From Sorangium aterium (GTDB lineage Bacteria; Myxococcota_A; Polyangia; Polyangiales; Polyangiaceae), in the NCBI RefSeq assembly GCF_028368935.1, contig NZ_JAQNDK010000003.1, forward strand, positions 62,001 through 126,000: DNA of 64,000 nucleotides, written 5' to 3'. Shown here one piece after another: positions 9,541 to 44,270 of this stretch. How positions within the stretch are numbered: position 1 is the first letter of the stretch; the number at the start of each line of letters is the position of its first letter. The notes under the pieces are model-generated. The model was not told the origin of the DNA. It did no database searches and worked only from the letters and a program-made list of their open reading frames with translations. A program made the position numbers and the translations under genes.

Positions 9541-12500
9541 ATGTTTCACCCCGTCGTCGACCGGTGGTTCCGTGACCGCTTCGGCGCCCCCGCCCCCGCC
9601 CAGGAGCGCGCCTGGCCGGTCATCGCGGCCGGTCGCGACGCGCTGATCAGCGCGCCGACCGGCGCCGGCAAGACGCTCGCGGCCTTCCTCTTCTGCCTCG
9701 ACCGGCTCGTCCGCGACGCGGCGCGAGGCGCCCTCGAGGACCGCACGGACGTCCTTTACATCTCTCCGCTGAAGGCGCTCTCGCACGACGTCCACCGCAA
9801 CCTCGAGCAGCCGATCGCCGAGATCTCTGCGGCCATGGAGGCGGCGGGCCTGCCCGCGCCGGGCATCCGGGCCGTCGTGCGGACCGGCGACAGCCCCGCG
9901 CAGGAGCGGCGCGCCATGGCGGCCCGGCCGCCGCACGTGCTCGTCACCACACCGGAGTCCGCGTTCATCCTGCTGACCAGCGCGTCGGGGCGGCGCGCGC
10001 TCTCCGGGGTGCGCACCGTGATCCTCGACGAGGTCCACGCGATCGCCGGCGACAAGCGCGGCGCCCACCTCGCGCTCTCGCTCGAGCGGCTCGAGGACCT
10101 CGTGGTCGGCCAGGGCGGCGCCCGCCCGCAGCGCGTGGGCCTCAGCGCCACCGTCCGCCCCATCGAGATCGCCGCCCGGCTCGTCGCCGGCGCGCGCGAG
10201 CTGCCCCAGATCGTCGACGTCGGGCAGCGGCGGGACCTCGATCTCGCCATCGAGGTGCCCCGCGACGAGCTCGGCGCGGTCTGTACGCACGAGCAGTGGA
10301 CCGAGATCTACGACCGCATCGCGGCGCTCGCGGAGGGGGCGCGGTCGACGCTGGTGTTCGTCAACACGCGCCGCCTCGTCGAGCGGGTCGCGCACGCGCT
10401 CGGCGCGCGGCTCGGCGAGGACGTCGTGGCCGCCCACCACGGCAGCCTCTCGCGGGCCCGGCGGCTCTCGGCGGAGCGGCGCCTCAAGGCCGGGGAGCTC
10501 CGCGTCGTCGTCGCGACAGCGTCGCTCGAGCTCGGCATCGACGTCGGCGCGGTCGACCTCGCCTGCCTCGTCGGCTCGCCGCGGTCGATCAACGTCGCCC
10601 TCCAGCGCATCGGCCGCTCGGGCCACGCCCTCGCCGCGACGCCGCGCGGGCGGCTCTTCCCGCTGACGCGCGACCAGCTCGTCGAGTGCGCGGCGATCGT
10701 GCGCGCCGCGCGCCGTGGCGAGCTCGATCGGATGGCGTCGCGCGAGGGGCCGCTCGACGTGCTCGCGCAGCAGATCATCGCCGCGTGCGCGTGCGAGGAG
10801 CGCGACGAGGAGGGCCTCTACGCGCTCGTCCGCCGGGCCGCGCCTTACGAAGGGCTGTCGCGCCGCGACTTCGACGCGGTGGTGGCCATGGTCTCGGGCG
10901 GCGCCGCCGCGGCGGACGACGGCGCGTCCGCGGCCCGCGGCGCGCGGCAGCGGGCCGGGTCGCTCGTCTACCGCGACGCGATCGGCGGCCGGCTGCGCGG
11001 GCGGCGCGGCGCGCGGCTCGCGGCGCTCACCTCGGGCGGGGCGATCCCCGACATCGCGGCCGTCGACGTGGTGCTCCAGCCCGACGGCACCAAGGTCGGC
11101 ACGCTCGACGAGGATTTCGCGATCGAGTCGTCCGGCGGCGACGTCTTCCTGCTGGGCAACACCTCCTGGCGGGTGATCCGGCTGGAGGGCGGGCAGATGT
11201 GGGTCGAGGACGCCCACGGCGCCGCGCCCACGGTGCCGTTCTGGCTGGGGGAGGCGCCGGCGCGCACGCCGGAGCTCTCCGCCGAGGTCGCAGCGCTCCG
11301 CGCCGAGGTCGCGGCGCGCCTCGACGAGGAGCGGGCCGATGGGGCGCGGCCGGCGGCCGAGCGGGGCCAGGGCGGCGAGGAGGCGCGGGCGGCGCGGTCC
11401 CGGGCGGCGCGCTGGCTCATGGAGGCGTGCGCGCTCGACGCGCGCGGCGCGCTGCTCGTGCGCGACTACATCGAGGCGGGGCGCGCGGCGCTGGGCGCGG
11501 TCCCGGGCGGCGCGACCGTCGTGGTCGAGCGCTTCTTCGACGAGGCCGGGGGGCAGCAGATCGTCGTCCACACGCCGCTCGGCGGCCGCGTGAACCGCGC
11601 GCTCGGGCTCGCGCTGCGCAAGCGCTTCTGCCGGTCGTTCGACTTCGAGCTCCAGGCGGCGGCGACCGACGACGGCGTGCTGCTCTCGCTGTCGGCGGAG
11701 CACGGGATCCCGATCGACGAGGTGCTCGATCTCGTCCGCCCCGAGGGCCTCGAGGAGGTGCTCGTCCAGGCGGCTCTCCAGGGCCCGATGTTCCGCACGC
11801 GCTTCCGCTGGGCCGCGTCCCGCGCGCTCGCGCTGCTCCGGTTCCGCGGGGGCCGGCGGGTGCCGCCGGCGCTCCAGCGCATGCGCGCCGACGACCTCCT
11901 GCTCTCGATCTTCCCCGAGCAGCAGGGCTGCCAGGACAACCACGGGCTCTTCGCGCACGTCGAGCCACCGGATCACCCGCTCGTCCGCGAGGCGCTGCGC
12001 GACTGCCTGACCGAGCTGATGGATGTCGAGGGGCTGCGCGCGCTGCTCGTCGGCCTGCGCAGCGGGGCGATCCGGGTCGTCGCGCTCGACACGCCGGAGC
12101 CGAGCGTCTTCTCGCACGAGATCCTGAACGCGAACCCCTACGCGTTCCTCGACGACGCGCCGCTGGAGGAGCGCCGCGCGAGGGCGGTCCGCGTGCGGCG
12201 CGGGCTCCCGGCGGAGGTCGCCGAGCGGCTGGGCGGGCTCGATCCGGCGGTCGTCGCCGAGGTGGTCGCCGAGGCGCGGCCGGACGTGCGCGACGCGGAC
12301 GAGCTGCACGAGCTCCTGCTCGACCGGGTCGCGCTCCCCGCGGAGGAGGGGATCCGGAGCGGCCTCGCGAGGCACTTCGAGGCGCTCTGCGCCGCGGGGC
12401 GCGCGGCCGAGGTGGGCGCCGCCCCGGGCGCGGGCGCCGGCGTGCCGCGCGCGCCGCGCGCGCCGCGCTGGGTGGCGACCGAGCGGCGGCCGCTTGTCGA

Positions 12501-14563: not shown

Positions 14564-15442
14564 ATGGCCAGCGAAAAGAAGAAGAAGGCACGAACCGAGG
14601 CCGCCTCGGACGCGGGCACGCAGGGCGAGAAGCCCTCCGCTGAGCCGCAGCGGGGCGGCAAGAAGAAATCGACGCTCACGGCCGCCCAGCGGCAGGAGCT
14701 GCTCGATCTCGATCCCGCCTATGAGGCGCCGATCGACCACCCCGTCTCCGATACGTTGCAGGAGGCGCGGGAGCTCGAGGTCGCCTTGAGCAAGCTCGGC
14801 AAGGAGATCTACAAGAAGAGCAGGCTCTCGAAGGAGGTCGGCACCTCGATCTCTGCCCGGCGCGACCTGCTCGCCGCGGCCGAGTCCGCCTGGACCGAGG
14901 TCCGCACGCTCCCGCTCTCCTCCGACCTGCGCGCGCAGCGCAAGGACGCGGAGGCCCTCAAGCGCGACGCCATCGCGGCGCTCCGCTACTTCCTCGCGGC
15001 GGACGAGGAGGTGGAGCGGCGCGTCGACGGGATCGTCCTTGGCACCGGCGTCGCCGACCTGGTGAGCGATCTGAGCCAGCTCGCCGAGCTGCTCGAGCAG
15101 CACCGCGACGCGCTGGCCAGGGCCGATCTTCCGAAGCGCGCCCCGGAGCGCGCCCGTGAGCTCGCCGCGGCGCTCAGCAGCGGCGCGGCGGAGCGCGCCG
15201 TCGACCCCCAGGGCAACGCCGCGATGGCACTCCGGAATCGCGCCTTCTGGTGGCTGCGCGAGGCCATGGACGACATCCGCGCCGCAGGCCGCTATGTCTA
15301 CCGCGACGAGCGCAAGGTGCTCGCGCTCTTCCGCACATCGAGCGCGCGTGCCCGCGCGCGTCGGCGCGCAGTGAAGCAGGATGAGCCCGAGACGACTGGA
15401 TCGAGCCCGACACCGGCAGCGCCTGAGCCTGAATCGACCTGA
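14564..15442 (+). CDS. Hypothetical protein (292 aa, helical, charged)
   Basis: I do not recognise the family. The start is ATG at 14564. The first 40 residues are Lys/Glu/Gly rich and probably disordered. From about residue 40 to 260 the protein looks almost entirely helical, with heptad-like charge patterns (for example VSDLSQLAELLEQHRDALAR), suggesting a coiled-coil or helical bundle. There is no signal peptide or membrane segment. A conserved-looking core is WLREAMDDIRAAGRYVYRD near 245-262. The tail is rich in Pro/Thr/Glu. The gene is bounded on both sides by repeat-containing non-coding DNA, so it is probably transcribed alone. Confidence 0.6.
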   Translation: MASEKKKKARTEAASDAGTQGEKPSAEPQRGGKKKSTLTAAQRQELLDLDPAYEAPIDHPVSDTLQEARELEVALSKLGKEIYKKSRLSKEVGTSISARRDLLAAAESAWTEVRTLPLSSDLRAQRKDAEALKRDAIAALRYFLAADEEVERRVDGIVLGTGVADLVSDLSQLAELLEQHRDALARADLPKRAPERARELAAALSSGAAERAVDPQGNAAMALRNRAFWWLREAMDDIRAAGRYVYRDERKVLALFRTSSARARARRRAVKQDEPETTGSSPTPAAPEPEST

Positions 15443-15449
15443 CGGCAGC

Positions 15450-15617
15450 GCAATCCGACGCGTCGGCAGCGCGATCGGACATGCAGGGAGCCCGATCCGA
15501 CATGGCAAGAGCGCGATCGGACACGCCGGGAACGCGATCGGACACGGGTGGGGCCCAATCCGATAGGACCGCAGGGCGATCCGACACGTCGAGAGCCCGA
15601 TCCAAGCCGCTTTCGTG
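15450..15617. repeat. 21-bp tandem repeat array (8 units)
   Basis: Units start at 15450, 15471, 15492, 15513, 15534, 15555, 15576 and 15597, exactly 21 bases apart. The shared core is GCGATCGGACA or its near copy CCGATCCGACA at the start of each unit; the second half varies. The array lies between the hypothetical gene and the efflux adaptor gene. A 21-base step is two turns of B-DNA, so each core would face the same side of the helix, as in an operator array. Because 21 is a multiple of three, the array is open in several frames, which can create false open frames. Confidence 0.85.
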
Positions 15618-15733
15618 AAGCGGACACCGCTGCGGCGTGCCCACGCGCACGTTGCGCTCCAACCCTGATGCGTCAATATCGTGCGGCGAACACGCGCTCG
15701 GGGGGGCGTTCCTGGTCATCTGAGGCCGCCGCC

Positions 15734-17002
15734 ATGTGGACTGTCCTTCCCGAGCTTCGCCAGCCTGCCAACTCCCGTCACCGCGCCTCCGGCCCGCCAA
15801 GGGTGCTCTGGACATTGCCGGTCGCGTTCGCGGCCGCTCTGCAGTGCCTCGCATGCAACCAGGGAGCATCTCAGCCCGGCGGCGCGAAGGCGGAGAAGCC
15901 CGCGGCCAGCGTCAAGGAGGTGACGCTCGCCCCCGTGACGGAGCTCGTCATGGAACAGGCCGTCGACATCTCGGGGACCCTCGACGCCGACGAGCAGGTG
16001 ACGCTCGGGGCCAAGGTGGCCGGACGCCTCGCCTCGATCTCGGTCGACCTGGCGAGCCCGGTCCAGCGAGATCAGGTCATCGCTCAGCTGGAGGCGCGGG
16101 ACTACGAGCTGCGCATCGAGCAGGCCACGGCCGCGCTGGCGCAGAGCCGCGCCCAGCTCGGCTTGCCCCCGGACGGGCCTGACAGCGAGCTCGATATCGA
16201 GGGCACGGCGATCGTGAGGCAGGCCCTCGCGACGTTCAAGGAAGCGCAGGCCAACCAGGTGCGGGCGCGGGGGCTCGCCAGGGAAGGGTTGATGTCGGGC
16301 ATGGACCTCGACGCGGCCGAGGCGGCGGCGGTCCGCGCGGAGACCGCCGTGCAGTCGGCGCGGGAGGAGGTGCGCATCCGCGAGGCCGCGGTCCGCCAGC
16401 GGCGCTCCGAGCTGCGCATGGCGCGGCAGCAGCTCACCGACACGATGGTGCGCTCGCCGCTCGATGGAGTCGTCCAGGTGCGGCGAGCGAACGTCGGCCA
16501 GTACCTCGCCGCGGGGGCGCCGATCGTGGATGTCGTCCGGATCGACCCGCTGCGGCTGCGCGTGGCCATCCCCGAGCTCGAGGCGGCGGGCGTGCGCGCC
16601 GGCCAGCCCGTGCGCGTGACCCTCCAGGGAGACGGCGCCACCTATCCGGGGACGGTCGCGCGCCTCGCGCCCGCGCTCGACCCGCAGAGCCGCACCCTGC
16701 TCGTGGAGAGCGACATCAAGAACCCCGGCCACCTGCGGCCCGGCAGCCTCGTCAGCGCGCAGATCGTCGTGAGCTCGAGGCCGGTGCCGACCGTGCCGGC
16801 GACCGCCGTCGTCCGGTTCGCCGGCCTCGCGAAGGTCATCACGGTCGAGGAGGGCAAGGCGAAGGAGAAGCAGGTCACCACGGGAAGGACGTCGGGAGAT
16901 CGGGTCGAGATCGTGTCCGGCGTCGCGGTGGGGGAGTCTGTCGTCGCCCGGCCCGGGTCGCTCCAGCAAGGGCAGCCGGTGCGCGTGGTGGAAGGGGGCT
17001 AG
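15734..17002 (+). CDS. RND efflux periplasmic adaptor (membrane fusion protein)
   Basis: The 422-residue protein is the adaptor linking an inner-membrane RND pump to an outer-membrane channel. It shows the biotinyl-lipoyl-like half motif (GTLDADEQVTLGAKVAGRL), a central coiled-coil hairpin with Arg/Ala-rich helices (about residues 130-250), the return lipoyl half (VRSPLDGVVQVRRANVGQYL) and a beta-barrel domain (LRLRVAIPE). The N-terminus has a hydrophobic segment ending in LAC at residue 41, so it is probably a lipoprotein, although the lipobox is weak. Upstream ATGs at 15668 and 15548 would lengthen it without adding a domain. The next gene begins one base after the stop, so adaptor and pump are co-transcribed and probably translationally coupled. 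Confidence 0.9.
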   Translation: MWTVLPELRQPANSRHRASGPPRVLWTLPVAFAAALQCLACNQGASQPGGAKAEKPAASVKEVTLAPVTELVMEQAVDISGTLDADEQVTLGAKVAGRLASISVDLASPVQRDQVIAQLEARDYELRIEQATAALAQSRAQLGLPPDGPDSELDIEGTAIVRQALATFKEAQANQVRARGLAREGLMSGMDLDAAEAAAVRAETAVQSAREEVRIREAAVRQRRSELRMARQQLTDTMVRSPLDGVVQVRRANVGQYLAAGAPIVDVVRIDPLRLRVAIPELEAAGVRAGQPVRVTLQGDGATYPGTVARLAPALDPQSRTLLVESDIKNPGHLRPGSLVSAQIVVSSRPVPTVPATAVVRFAGLAKVITVEEGKAKEKQVTTGRTSGDRVEIVSGVAVGESVVARPGSLQQGQPVRVVEGG

Positions 17003-17003
17003 G

Positions 17004-20324
<3,321 letters not shown>

Positions 20325-30156: not shown

Positions 30157-31833
30157 TCAATCTCGTCCGAGCAAAGGGACTTTGGGGCGAGCGGGGGAGC
30201 CTCTTCGCTCTGTCGACGCGGGCCTCGGCGTCGCCTTCGGGGCAGCGCCCGCCGCCCCGCGCGCGGCCGGCCCCGCGCTGGCGCTCGCGCTGGGCGCGGG
30301 TTGGGCCGCGGCGATCGCCGGCGCGGAGGCGCTGGGCGCCGGCGCCGACGGCTCTGCCGGCGTCGTCGCGCTCGGCGCGGCGGTCGCCGCGGCGCTCGCC
30401 GAGCCGGCGTCCAGCGCAGGGCCCTCCGACGGCGCGGCCGCCGCGGGCTCGGCCTGGGATCCGGCGCGGATCAGGAGCCAGGTCCCTGCGCCGAGCACCC
30501 CGAGCCCGAGGACGACCGCGGCGGCGACGAGCGGGGCTCGGTTCGGCGCCGCCGGCGCGATGTTCCCCGAGGGGACGGACGTCACCGACGTCTCCATCGT
30601 CGCCGCTAGGGGCGCGGCCGGAGCGCGGGACGGGTGCTCGGGCCCCATCGGGCCGATGCTCGTCGCCACCGGCGGCATCATCGCGGGCGCGGTGATCGCG
30701 GGCGCGGTGATCGCGGGCGCGGTGATCGCGGGCGCGGTGATCGCGGGCGCCGGCGTGGCGAGCGCGTGCGCCGAGGGGTTCGCCATGGCCCAGGGCGGCG
30801 TGGTCGGGCGGGGTGAACGGCCGCTGCTGGCCGGCGCGAGGCCGAGCAGCTCCGAGAGCGCCTGCGCCGCCTCGCTCGCCAGGCGGAACCGCGCCGCCGG
30901 ATCGACGGCCGTGGCCCGGGCGAACCAGCCATCGAAGCTCGGCGGCAGCACCACCCGCTGCGACATCGCCCGGTGGACCGGCGGCTCCTGCGGCCCGTGG
31001 ACGACCACGAGCGCGAACGCGATCACGTCGTTCGCGCTGAGCGCCTCCGGGCTCCAGTACGGCGTCCCCACGAGCAGCGTGTACGCGATCATCCCGAGCG
31101 CGTAGATGTCCACGGCGCTGGTGAGCTTCGTGTCGGTGCGGAACTGCTCGGGCGCCATGTAGATGGGCGTCCCGAGGCTGCGCGTGATGCCGGCCGCCGT
31201 CCCGCCCTCGGCGAGCAGCTTCGCCACGCCGAAATCGAGGATCTTCATGCGGGGCGTCCCGTCGTCCCGCTGCGTGACGAACAGGTTCTCGGGCTTGAGA
31301 TCCCGGTGGATGATGGACGCCGCGTGCGTCCGGTCGAGGGCCGACGCGGTCTGCTGGAGGTACGTCGCGACCTCGCCGGGAGGCAGCCTGCCGAGGCGCT
31401 TGAGGCGCTGGCCGAGCTCCTCGCCGCGGAGCAGCTCCATCACGAGGAACGGCATCCCTGTCGGCTCGTCGATGCCCGCGTCGAAGACGTCGACGATGTA
31501 CTCGCTCTCGATGTCCGCCGTGATCTGCGCCTCGCGCTTGAAGCGGCTGCGCATCTCCTCGCTCTGGAAGAGGTACGCGTGCATCACCTTCAGCGCCCGG
31601 CGGCGGTTCGTCTCGATGTGCACCACCTCGTAGACGGACCCCATCGCGCCCACGGCGAGGAGGCGCGCCACGCGATAGCGGTGCGCGAAGATCGTTCCGT
31701 CCGCGAGCGTGCCCGACACGGCGGGAGGGTCGCGCGCGGCGGCTGTCGCGTCAAGGATCCCGGGACCCCGCCAAGGACGGCGCGCGCTGCGCGGAGCGGC
31801 GGCCGCGACGCGCGACCGCGCGACCGCGCGCAT
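30157..31833 (-). CDS. Membrane-bound serine/threonine protein kinase
   Basis: The kinase domain shows a glycine loop (VGAMGSVYEVV), ATP lysine in RRALKVMHA, catalytic loop HRDLKPEN, DFG and MAPEQ. Its C-terminal part has a low-complexity Pro/Ala linker, a membrane helix near residue 450 (VVLGLGVLGAGTWLLI) and a Pro/Ser/Ala-rich outer region. The linker contains five APAIT repeats encoded by a 15-bp DNA repeat. With the start at 31833 (558 residues), TGA of the upstream formylglycine-enzyme gene and this ATG overlap as TGATG, indicating coupling. The first 38 residues are then Arg/Ala-rich and not kinase-like. A GTG at 31719 (520 residues, starting SGTLADGTIF) is the main alternative. Confidence 0.88.
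   Translation of the reverse strand: MRAVARSRVAAAAPRSARRPWRGPGILDATAAARDPPAVSGTLADGTIFAHRYRVARLLAVGAMGSVYEVVHIETNRRRALKVMHAYLFQSEEMRSRFKREAQITADIESEYIVDVFDAGIDEPTGMPFLVMELLRGEELGQRLKRLGRLPPGEVATYLQQTASALDRTHAASIIHRDLKPENLFVTQRDDGTPRMKILDFGVAKLLAEGGTAAGITRSLGTPIYMAPEQFRTDTKLTSAVDIYALGMIAYTLLVGTPYWSPEALSANDVIAFALVVVHGPQEPPVHRAMSQRVVLPPSFDGWFARATAVDPAARFRLASEAAQALSELLGLAPASSGRSPRPTTPPWAMANPSAHALATPAPAITAPAITAPAITAPAITAPAMMPPVATSIGPMGPEHPSRAPAAPLAATMETSVTSVPSGNIAPAAPNRAPLVAAAVVLGLGVLGAGTWLLIRAGSQAEPAAAAPSEGPALDAGSASAAATAAPSATTPAEPSAPAPSASAPAIAAAQPAPSASASAGPAARGAAGAAPKATPRPASTERRGSPARPKVPLLGRD
30680..30754 (-). repeat. 15-bp tandem repeat, five copies, inside the kinase gene
   Basis: The plus-strand unit ATCGCGGGCGCGGTG occurs in near-perfect copies from 30680, 15 bases apart, with the last copy diverged. 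It encodes the ITAPA repeat of the kinase linker on the minus strand. Copy number probably varies between strains. Confidence 0.85.
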
Positions 31834-43888: not shown

Positions 43889-43951
43889 AAAAGACCCTGC
43901 CTTTGGCCGAAGTACCCCTCCACCCATCCGAGCGCTCGCCGTCCGGCGTTT

Positions 43952-44270
43952 CGGCAGGTCGCGATCTGGGAAAGCGGTCGATATCGACGTGCCGTCGAGA
44001 GCGTGACCTGACCTGACGCTCGTCGTCGAGCGTTCCGGCAGGTCGCGATCTGGGAAAGCGGTCGATATCGACGTGCCGTCGAGAGCGTGACCTGACTCGA
44101 CGCTCGTCGTCGAGCGTTCCGGCAGATCGCGATCTGGGAGGACGCTTGAACCCGGATGTCCCGTCGAGAACGTGACCTGAGCCGACGCATGTCATCAGGC
44201 GCTCGCCCAGGTCGCGATCAGCCCGAGCGCCGGAGCTCGACGTGCCGGCAAGATCGCGATCTTCCCGGGA
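43952..44270. repeat. 84-bp tandem repeat, about 3.5 copies
   Basis: Copies start at 43952, 44036 and 44120, exactly 84 bases apart, with a decayed fourth copy from about 44204. The first two are nearly identical over the whole unit, including GGTCGCGATCTGGGAAAGCG. Because 84 is a multiple of three, the repeat stays open in several frames, yet it has no plausible gene start and I treat it as non-coding. Confidence 0.85.

Follow-up and report, generated by a model that had tools for sequence, protein, structure and literature searches.

A helically phased 21-bp array in Sorangium aterium may be the private array of the preceding gene, a member of a predicted helical protein family

The stretch of Sorangium aterium DNA analysed here (64,000 nucleotides, called the window) contains a tandem array of eight 21-bp units, array W, between a gene for a predicted helical protein and an RND efflux operon. 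Our preferred reading, to which we give a probability of roughly 0.55, is that array W is private to the preceding gene and that each protein of this family binds its own array every two or four helical turns. Many relatives of the gene have arrays of their own at two- or four-turn spacing, which suggests a protein recognising its own array. The features of this region are:

14564..15442, + strand: array-associated family gene, 292 aa with a predicted all-helical core, the proposed partner of the array
15429..15449, + strand: degenerate ninth unit, in register, within which the preceding gene ends at its TGA stop (15440-15442)
15450..15617, + strand: array W, eight 21-bp units with the core [GC]CGATC[CG]GACA and a variable half
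15648..15738, + strand: conserved 5' block of the RND adaptor gene (context, outside the array), from alignment with three sister species
15734..17002, + strand: RND efflux adaptor gene (context), from the conserved ATG; its orthologs lack the array
17004-20324: pump gene (context), directly after the adaptor gene

The exact 21-base spacing of eight units, claimed in the preliminary description, was confirmed. The units of array W keep their register with zero indels, and TRF reports period 21, 7.7 copies and 0% indels. Identity at lag 21 is 0.61, whereas 2000 simulated sequences (first-order Markov, local composition) reached at most 0.48 at any lag from 10 to 60. Column counts give a unit of [GC]CGATC[CG]GACA followed by about 10 variable bases, with CAATC instead of CGATC in two of the eight units and a decayed last unit (CCGATCCAAGCC). 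The conserved first half described earlier is borne out by these core columns, but the second half is not freely variable, being partly constrained with G at column 13 in 8/8 units. The degenerate ninth unit matches the adjoining unit at 13 of 21 positions (counted by hand). Array W is non-coding, ends 117 bp before the adaptor's conserved ATG (15734), and gave no RNA structure (z -0.23). It had also been called unusual, but its period is not: an unbiased 864-kb sample of the same genome (G000) held 146 tandem arrays, 16 of them with period 21, the other common periods being 12, 15, 18, 24 and 27, so that period 21 alone is neither rare nor evidence of function. Among other repeats noted, a 15-bp perfect tandem repeat lies at 30680-30750 of the window (4.7 copies, 100% matches), and dispersed short arrays of period 12/24 around AACGTTTACGTGGTCGTGG are found in the 3' flank of locus L225 and in several intergenic places of the sampled contigs C1 and C2 of G000.

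The array does lie directly upstream of the RND adaptor gene, as first described, and this position together with the 21-bp phasing favours its proposed role as a cooperative operator of the efflux operon, a role that we nevertheless consider very improbable. The adaptor ortholog was found in G003 and in Sorangium cellulosum So ce26, So0157-2 and So0008-312 (G001, G004 and G005), and a 21-bp array precedes it in none of these four judged sister species; G002 was left out of the comparison, its contig beginning inside the adaptor gene. Homology before the adaptor restarts at 15633-15648, past array W, in G001, G004 and G005, where different genes occupy the place of the gene preceding the array, and at 15870 in G003. 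The efflux operator was rejected on these grounds, the orthologs having no array before them and homology restarting only after array W. A separate block of about 90 bp (15648-15738), which abuts the adaptor start and contains TGATGCGTCAATATC ... CGCTCGGGGGGGCG ... CATGTGG and a run of seven G, is strongly conserved in three sister species. It sits nearer the adaptor than array W and, judged from this conservation, is more likely to be the site of adaptor control, as a candidate operator or promoter. A genome search for the unit found four more arrays inside unrelated genes, the kind of outcome that the preliminary description had named as refuting its idea, and it goes against an efflux link. 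Array W thus probably does not control the neighbouring drug-efflux genes.

The protein encoded at 14564-15442 is lysine-rich in its N-terminal part and arginine-rich in its C-terminal part, and its gene is the only family gene that a profile search found in the 64-kb window. Homologs with 28-37% identity occur in four of five sister species, and their flanks contain exact 21-bp arrays of other units, directly 3' of the gene in G004, G005 and G001 and directly 5' in three further members. A family profile was therefore built from nine members and used to search 144 genomes of the order at E <=1e-5. It found members in 53 of the 144 genomes, with 12 matches in G000. A family profile whose alignment included the window's protein matched that protein at 2.9e-61.

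Neither Pfam nor PHROG gave a family match for this protein or the members tested, and no PADLOC model of anti-phage defence genes matched four members at E <=1. A known DNA-binding domain was not found in the family, and a profile of 60 members gave nothing below E 0.45 against PDB sequences. The L101 protein had no relative in phages and viral contigs, and no relative of the L261 or L101 protein was present in 72,556 plasmids. NCBIfam NF052641 ('PQLLE family protein') matches 5 of 60 members weakly at E <=1e-3 (best 7.6e-7), the best member, L097, scoring 29 bits where the curated cut-off is 80; the window's protein has no match to it. The structural model of the window's protein is weak (pLDDT 57), and that of the So0157-2 homolog (pLDDT 78) is all-helical with a disordered N-terminal tail; Foldseek returned zero matches at E <=0.001 for either model. 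The central domain compares with S23/IVP-type four-helix bundles at VIA Z 8.1 (rmsd 2.9, 92 aligned) for 2rld and 7.9 (3.3, 91) for 2gsc, but the vinculin tail and talin score the same, and all of these are below the tool's telling level for helical bundles. The family is predicted from the models to be all-helical and appears to be undescribed. Literature on Sorangium or myxobacterial repeats and on PQLLE, with subscription papers mostly outside reach, yielded no report of the gene-array pairing.

Association with arrays was scored at a first set of 79 loci, made up of the window's gene, eight sister homologs and 70 loci from the 144-genome search. For each locus the strongest lag from 10 to 69 was determined in the 900 bases before and 600 after the match; sides of <150 bases were skipped, and several family loci were cut by contig ends. 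Two hundred random called genes of G000 served as controls, excluding genes shorter than 450 bp and those less than 1 kb from the end of a block. A period 21 or 41-43 array lay directly 3' or 5' at 36 of the 79 family loci, and at five of the 200 controls, two of which proved to be family arrays (W and C4:1089k). Without W and the two family arrays, the comparison is 35/78 loci vs 3/198 controls (Fisher 3e-19). Above-threshold sides of the first set (49 of 155) had lag 21 in 20 cases, 42 in seven, 43 in six and 41 in three, 36 in all, with lag 65 in four; among control arrays, periods of 12-27 bp dominate. A second control of 40 sister-species loci, a set partly chosen for arrays, gave four positives. 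The criterion having been fixed beforehand, 38 further loci, mostly weaker members, were then used as a held-out set: 17 were positive, and 17 of the 22 positive sides had periods of 21, 41, 42 or 43, although 17/38 is an upper figure, since the L282 repeat reads as a coding coiled coil and L279 and L289 are apparent orthologs. Most of the fetched family loci (64/117 over both sets) have no array by this criterion.

The arrays fall into classes. Direct 21-bp repeats stand 3' of the gene in the first (W, L097-L099, L191-L193, L197 and L219) and 5' of it in the second, where several have a GACA-type core and a variable half. The third class has units of 41-43 bp, many with dyads (GGTGTCGACACC, GCTCTCGAGAGC, AGCGATCGATCGCT, AACCGGATCCGGTT). 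A 65-bp class (four sides) comprises three G000 paralogs and one So ce26 member; 65 is not a multiple of 10.5. RNA folding was absent from the 21-bp arrays (mean z -0.4/-0.7, n=20), and in 41-43-bp arrays both strands fold alike (mean z -3.9/-4.2, n=16), which is the behaviour of palindromes. Two other arrays were noted: a second intergenic array in the window (43928-44247; period 84, sub-period 42), with AGGTCGCGATCT-type dyads resembling the 41-43-bp class, and one at L200, about 360 bases 3' of the family match, with a 61-bp period and GTGGTCCCCGC...GCGGGGATGAGCC, which we take to resemble a CRISPR array.

Array side and period class agree with the tree of the proteins, built from 60 of the 79 in the first set. 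Side requires four changes (mean 12.2 and minimum 8 in 300 shuffles), period class four (13.9 and 10) and the two jointly seven (21.0 and 17), the latter two likewise from 300 shuffles each. Unit sequence tracks the protein among close relatives only: unit and protein similarity correlate overall (Mantel r 0.28, 0/2000 permutations as high) but do not co-vary below 45% identity (r 0.05, p 0.15). L219, from another taxonomic family, is an exception: its protein shares 25% identity with W's, and the W model finds its 3' array at 2.5e-11. L231, the closest relative of W's protein (50% identical), has only three degenerate CCGATCGATC copies, and So ce26 has an A9-type array (see below) and no W-like gene above 33% identity. 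A universal core motif was rejected. In 30 of 40 arrays retained after removal of near-duplicates, GGACA and GACAC were enriched but failed correction, GGACA occurring in 10/30 arrays vs 8/125 (p 2.7e-4; correction limit 9.8e-5).

Array units differ in sequence between family loci, and since 21 and 42 (±1) bp correspond to two and four turns of B-DNA, what the loci have in common is their geometry rather than a sequence. Periods of 41 and 43 bp are not divisible by 3, so the spacing is not dictated by coding. The earlier idea of helically phased sites thus gains ground from the concentration of periods at 21 and 41-43 bp across the family despite differing sequence. From linkage, phasing and tree fit, we infer that the family protein would bind the double-stranded DNA of its own array, the half-site being direct in 21-bp arrays and arranged as dyads in many 41-43-bp arrays. 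Bound copies of the protein, two or four turns apart, would then all face the same side of the helix and could assemble cooperatively. The simplest role would be self-regulation, a local nucleoprotein anchor, or both. Iteron arrays and partition sites (Rep/iterons, ParR/parC) likewise have a protein gene beside a tandem array of sites, presumed sites in our case, at whole-turn spacing. The present family differs from them in being chromosomal, with about a dozen G000 paralogs that have different units, no plasmid match and no known domain; a replication initiator was sought in Pfam and NCBIfam without any Rep family match.

A pattern search and a 53-nt sequence model together found five W-type arrays in the 13.5 Mb of G000, W and four others (A9-A12). 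All 22 model matches at E <=1.1e-4 fall within these five, and the remaining 31 matches have E 0.02 or worse. Pooled over the 51 units, the core columns read [GC]-C-G-A-T-C-[CG]-G-A-C-A. The host proteins of the four were named by reading of their sequence:

A9, C5:515.6k: in a long ORF whose first part is anti-sigma-like and which closely follows a sigma-factor-like ORF
A10, C5:1193.8k: inside a Ser/Thr kinase domain, between DFG and TPHYLPPE-like segments; the repeat spans 56 residues (L010 ~9768-9935)
A11, C1:899.4k: behind a kinase domain
A12, C2:1576.1k: in the linker of a nuclease/helicase-type protein

All four lie inside protein genes and are read in two frames, as RSDxxxx heptads in A9-A11 and as NPGPTAP in A12. 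The Arg codon CGA is used in 30 of the 34 units of A9-A11 and for 7% of Arg codons in a genome sample, a codon usage suggesting that the arrays share an origin or are constrained as DNA. Rickettsia palindromic elements also place one DNA unit in coding sequence, in different frames, and in intergenic DNA, but the W-type unit forms a tandem array tied to a gene family, not a single palindrome. A10 is missing at the orthologous site in 4/4 sister species and A11 in 2/2 judged species (G003 was aligned by one flank only). In So ce26 the ortholog of A9 contains eight nearly perfect units in which CGG replaces CGA, and 27-bp repeats occupy the A9 site in G003 and G004. At the A12 site there is a 21-bp repeat of another unit in G003, other repeats in G004 and a shorter sequence in G001, with G005 aligned by one flank only. 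These four arrays may be secondary sites, or copies spread from one another.

Several related observations concern other arrays. The linker of the nuclease/helicase-type protein is hypervariable, with tandem repeats that are unrelated from one Sorangium species to another (L113 in G003, L112 in G004, and L012). Dispersed copies of the unrelated 21-bp array at the G003 A12 site were considered and rejected, as it occurs at a single locus only. R1 matches in relatives (L046, L048, L049 and L051) were rejected as W-type, being different 21-bp arrays; the entire contigs of L046 and L049 contained no family gene. At L048/L130 (G048) an ORF on the opposite strand, read from its sequence as DNA polymerase III tau/gamma-like, has a 21-bp GGTCCGACAGCGCTCGCTACC array in its linker. 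Arrays of AACCGGATCCGGTT with 42/43-bp units are dispersed, namely L153 and the L228 array.

These additional loci could also be the offspring of a self-spreading repeat pair, in which the protein promotes amplification or dispersal of its array; we think this unlikely. The empty orthologous sites of A10 and A11 and the keeping of the core, with its CGA bias, in two reading frames and in non-coding DNA are in its favour. So is a second dispersed family: the 42-bp AACCGGATCCGGTT array of L153 (C2:1043736-1044029, seven units) shares its unit type with the array beside family gene C4:1089621, and the sampled sequence around it (C2:1000001-1200000) contains no family gene. The logic is that of REP/REPIN and RAYT, where a gene is flanked by its own repeat and extra copies occur elsewhere in the genome (PMC3116915), but here the arrays are tandem and phased and dispersed copies are very few, with just five W-type loci in the genome. 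No transposase family match, including Y1 (HUH), was obtained at E <=1 for seven members, no nuclease domain was matched, and ectopic gene conversion alone could spread the units. Of lower probability, and in our judgement improbable, is an RNA-based system resembling TIGR-Tas, in which transcribed units of the array would serve the adjacent protein as small guide RNAs. For TIGR-Tas, PMC12045711 describes an array beside a protein gene, with short conserved repeats, variable spacer-like segments and 36-nt dual-spacer guides, and the likeness extends to segments that vary between loci here. The conserved core and variable half of W, L101, L102, L200 and L243, the basic-tailed helical protein that adjoins the array, and the hairpins formed by 41-43-bp units would suit such a system. 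Set against them are the near-identical units of many arrays (L097, L099, L104 and L219), the unfolded 21-bp class, periods of 21 and 41-43 bp in place of the 36 nt of tigRNAs, the occurrence of arrays on either side of the gene, and the lack of any Nop-domain match at E <=1 in seven members.

Also improbable is an ordinary minisatellite, with W one of many slippage arrays that by chance lies beside an orphan gene, akin to the simple VNTR that the preliminary description had thought equally possible. Such arrays are plentiful in the 864-kb sample, and the A12 linker has unrelated ones in other species. Slippage does not account, however, for the phased arrays beside relatives of the adjoining gene, and the enrichment and period restriction beside the family, the held-out replication and the protein-tree fit all argue against it. 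In arrangement, the gene and its array resemble iteron and partition-site arrays and partly REP/RAYT; the defining protein domains of these systems and of TIGR-Tas were not matched.

The preferred reading, in which the protein recognises its own array, would correct an annotation error that is easily made, in which arrays of this kind are taken for operators of the operon that follows. A wider proposal, which we offer tentatively as speculation, is that this myxobacterial order has undescribed chromosomal array systems: about a dozen helical paralogs in the window's genome, each with a private, fast-changing and helically phased array that is read as DNA or RNA and is maybe copied to new sites, including coding regions of kinases and a sigma-factor partner. 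If the pairing is real, a single bacterial order carries many orthogonal protein-array pairs with a common geometry and differing sequence. They would form a natural series for the joint change of DNA-recognition specificity and its sites, and would supply candidates for orthogonal DNA-binding modules, while a large orphan family would gain a function.
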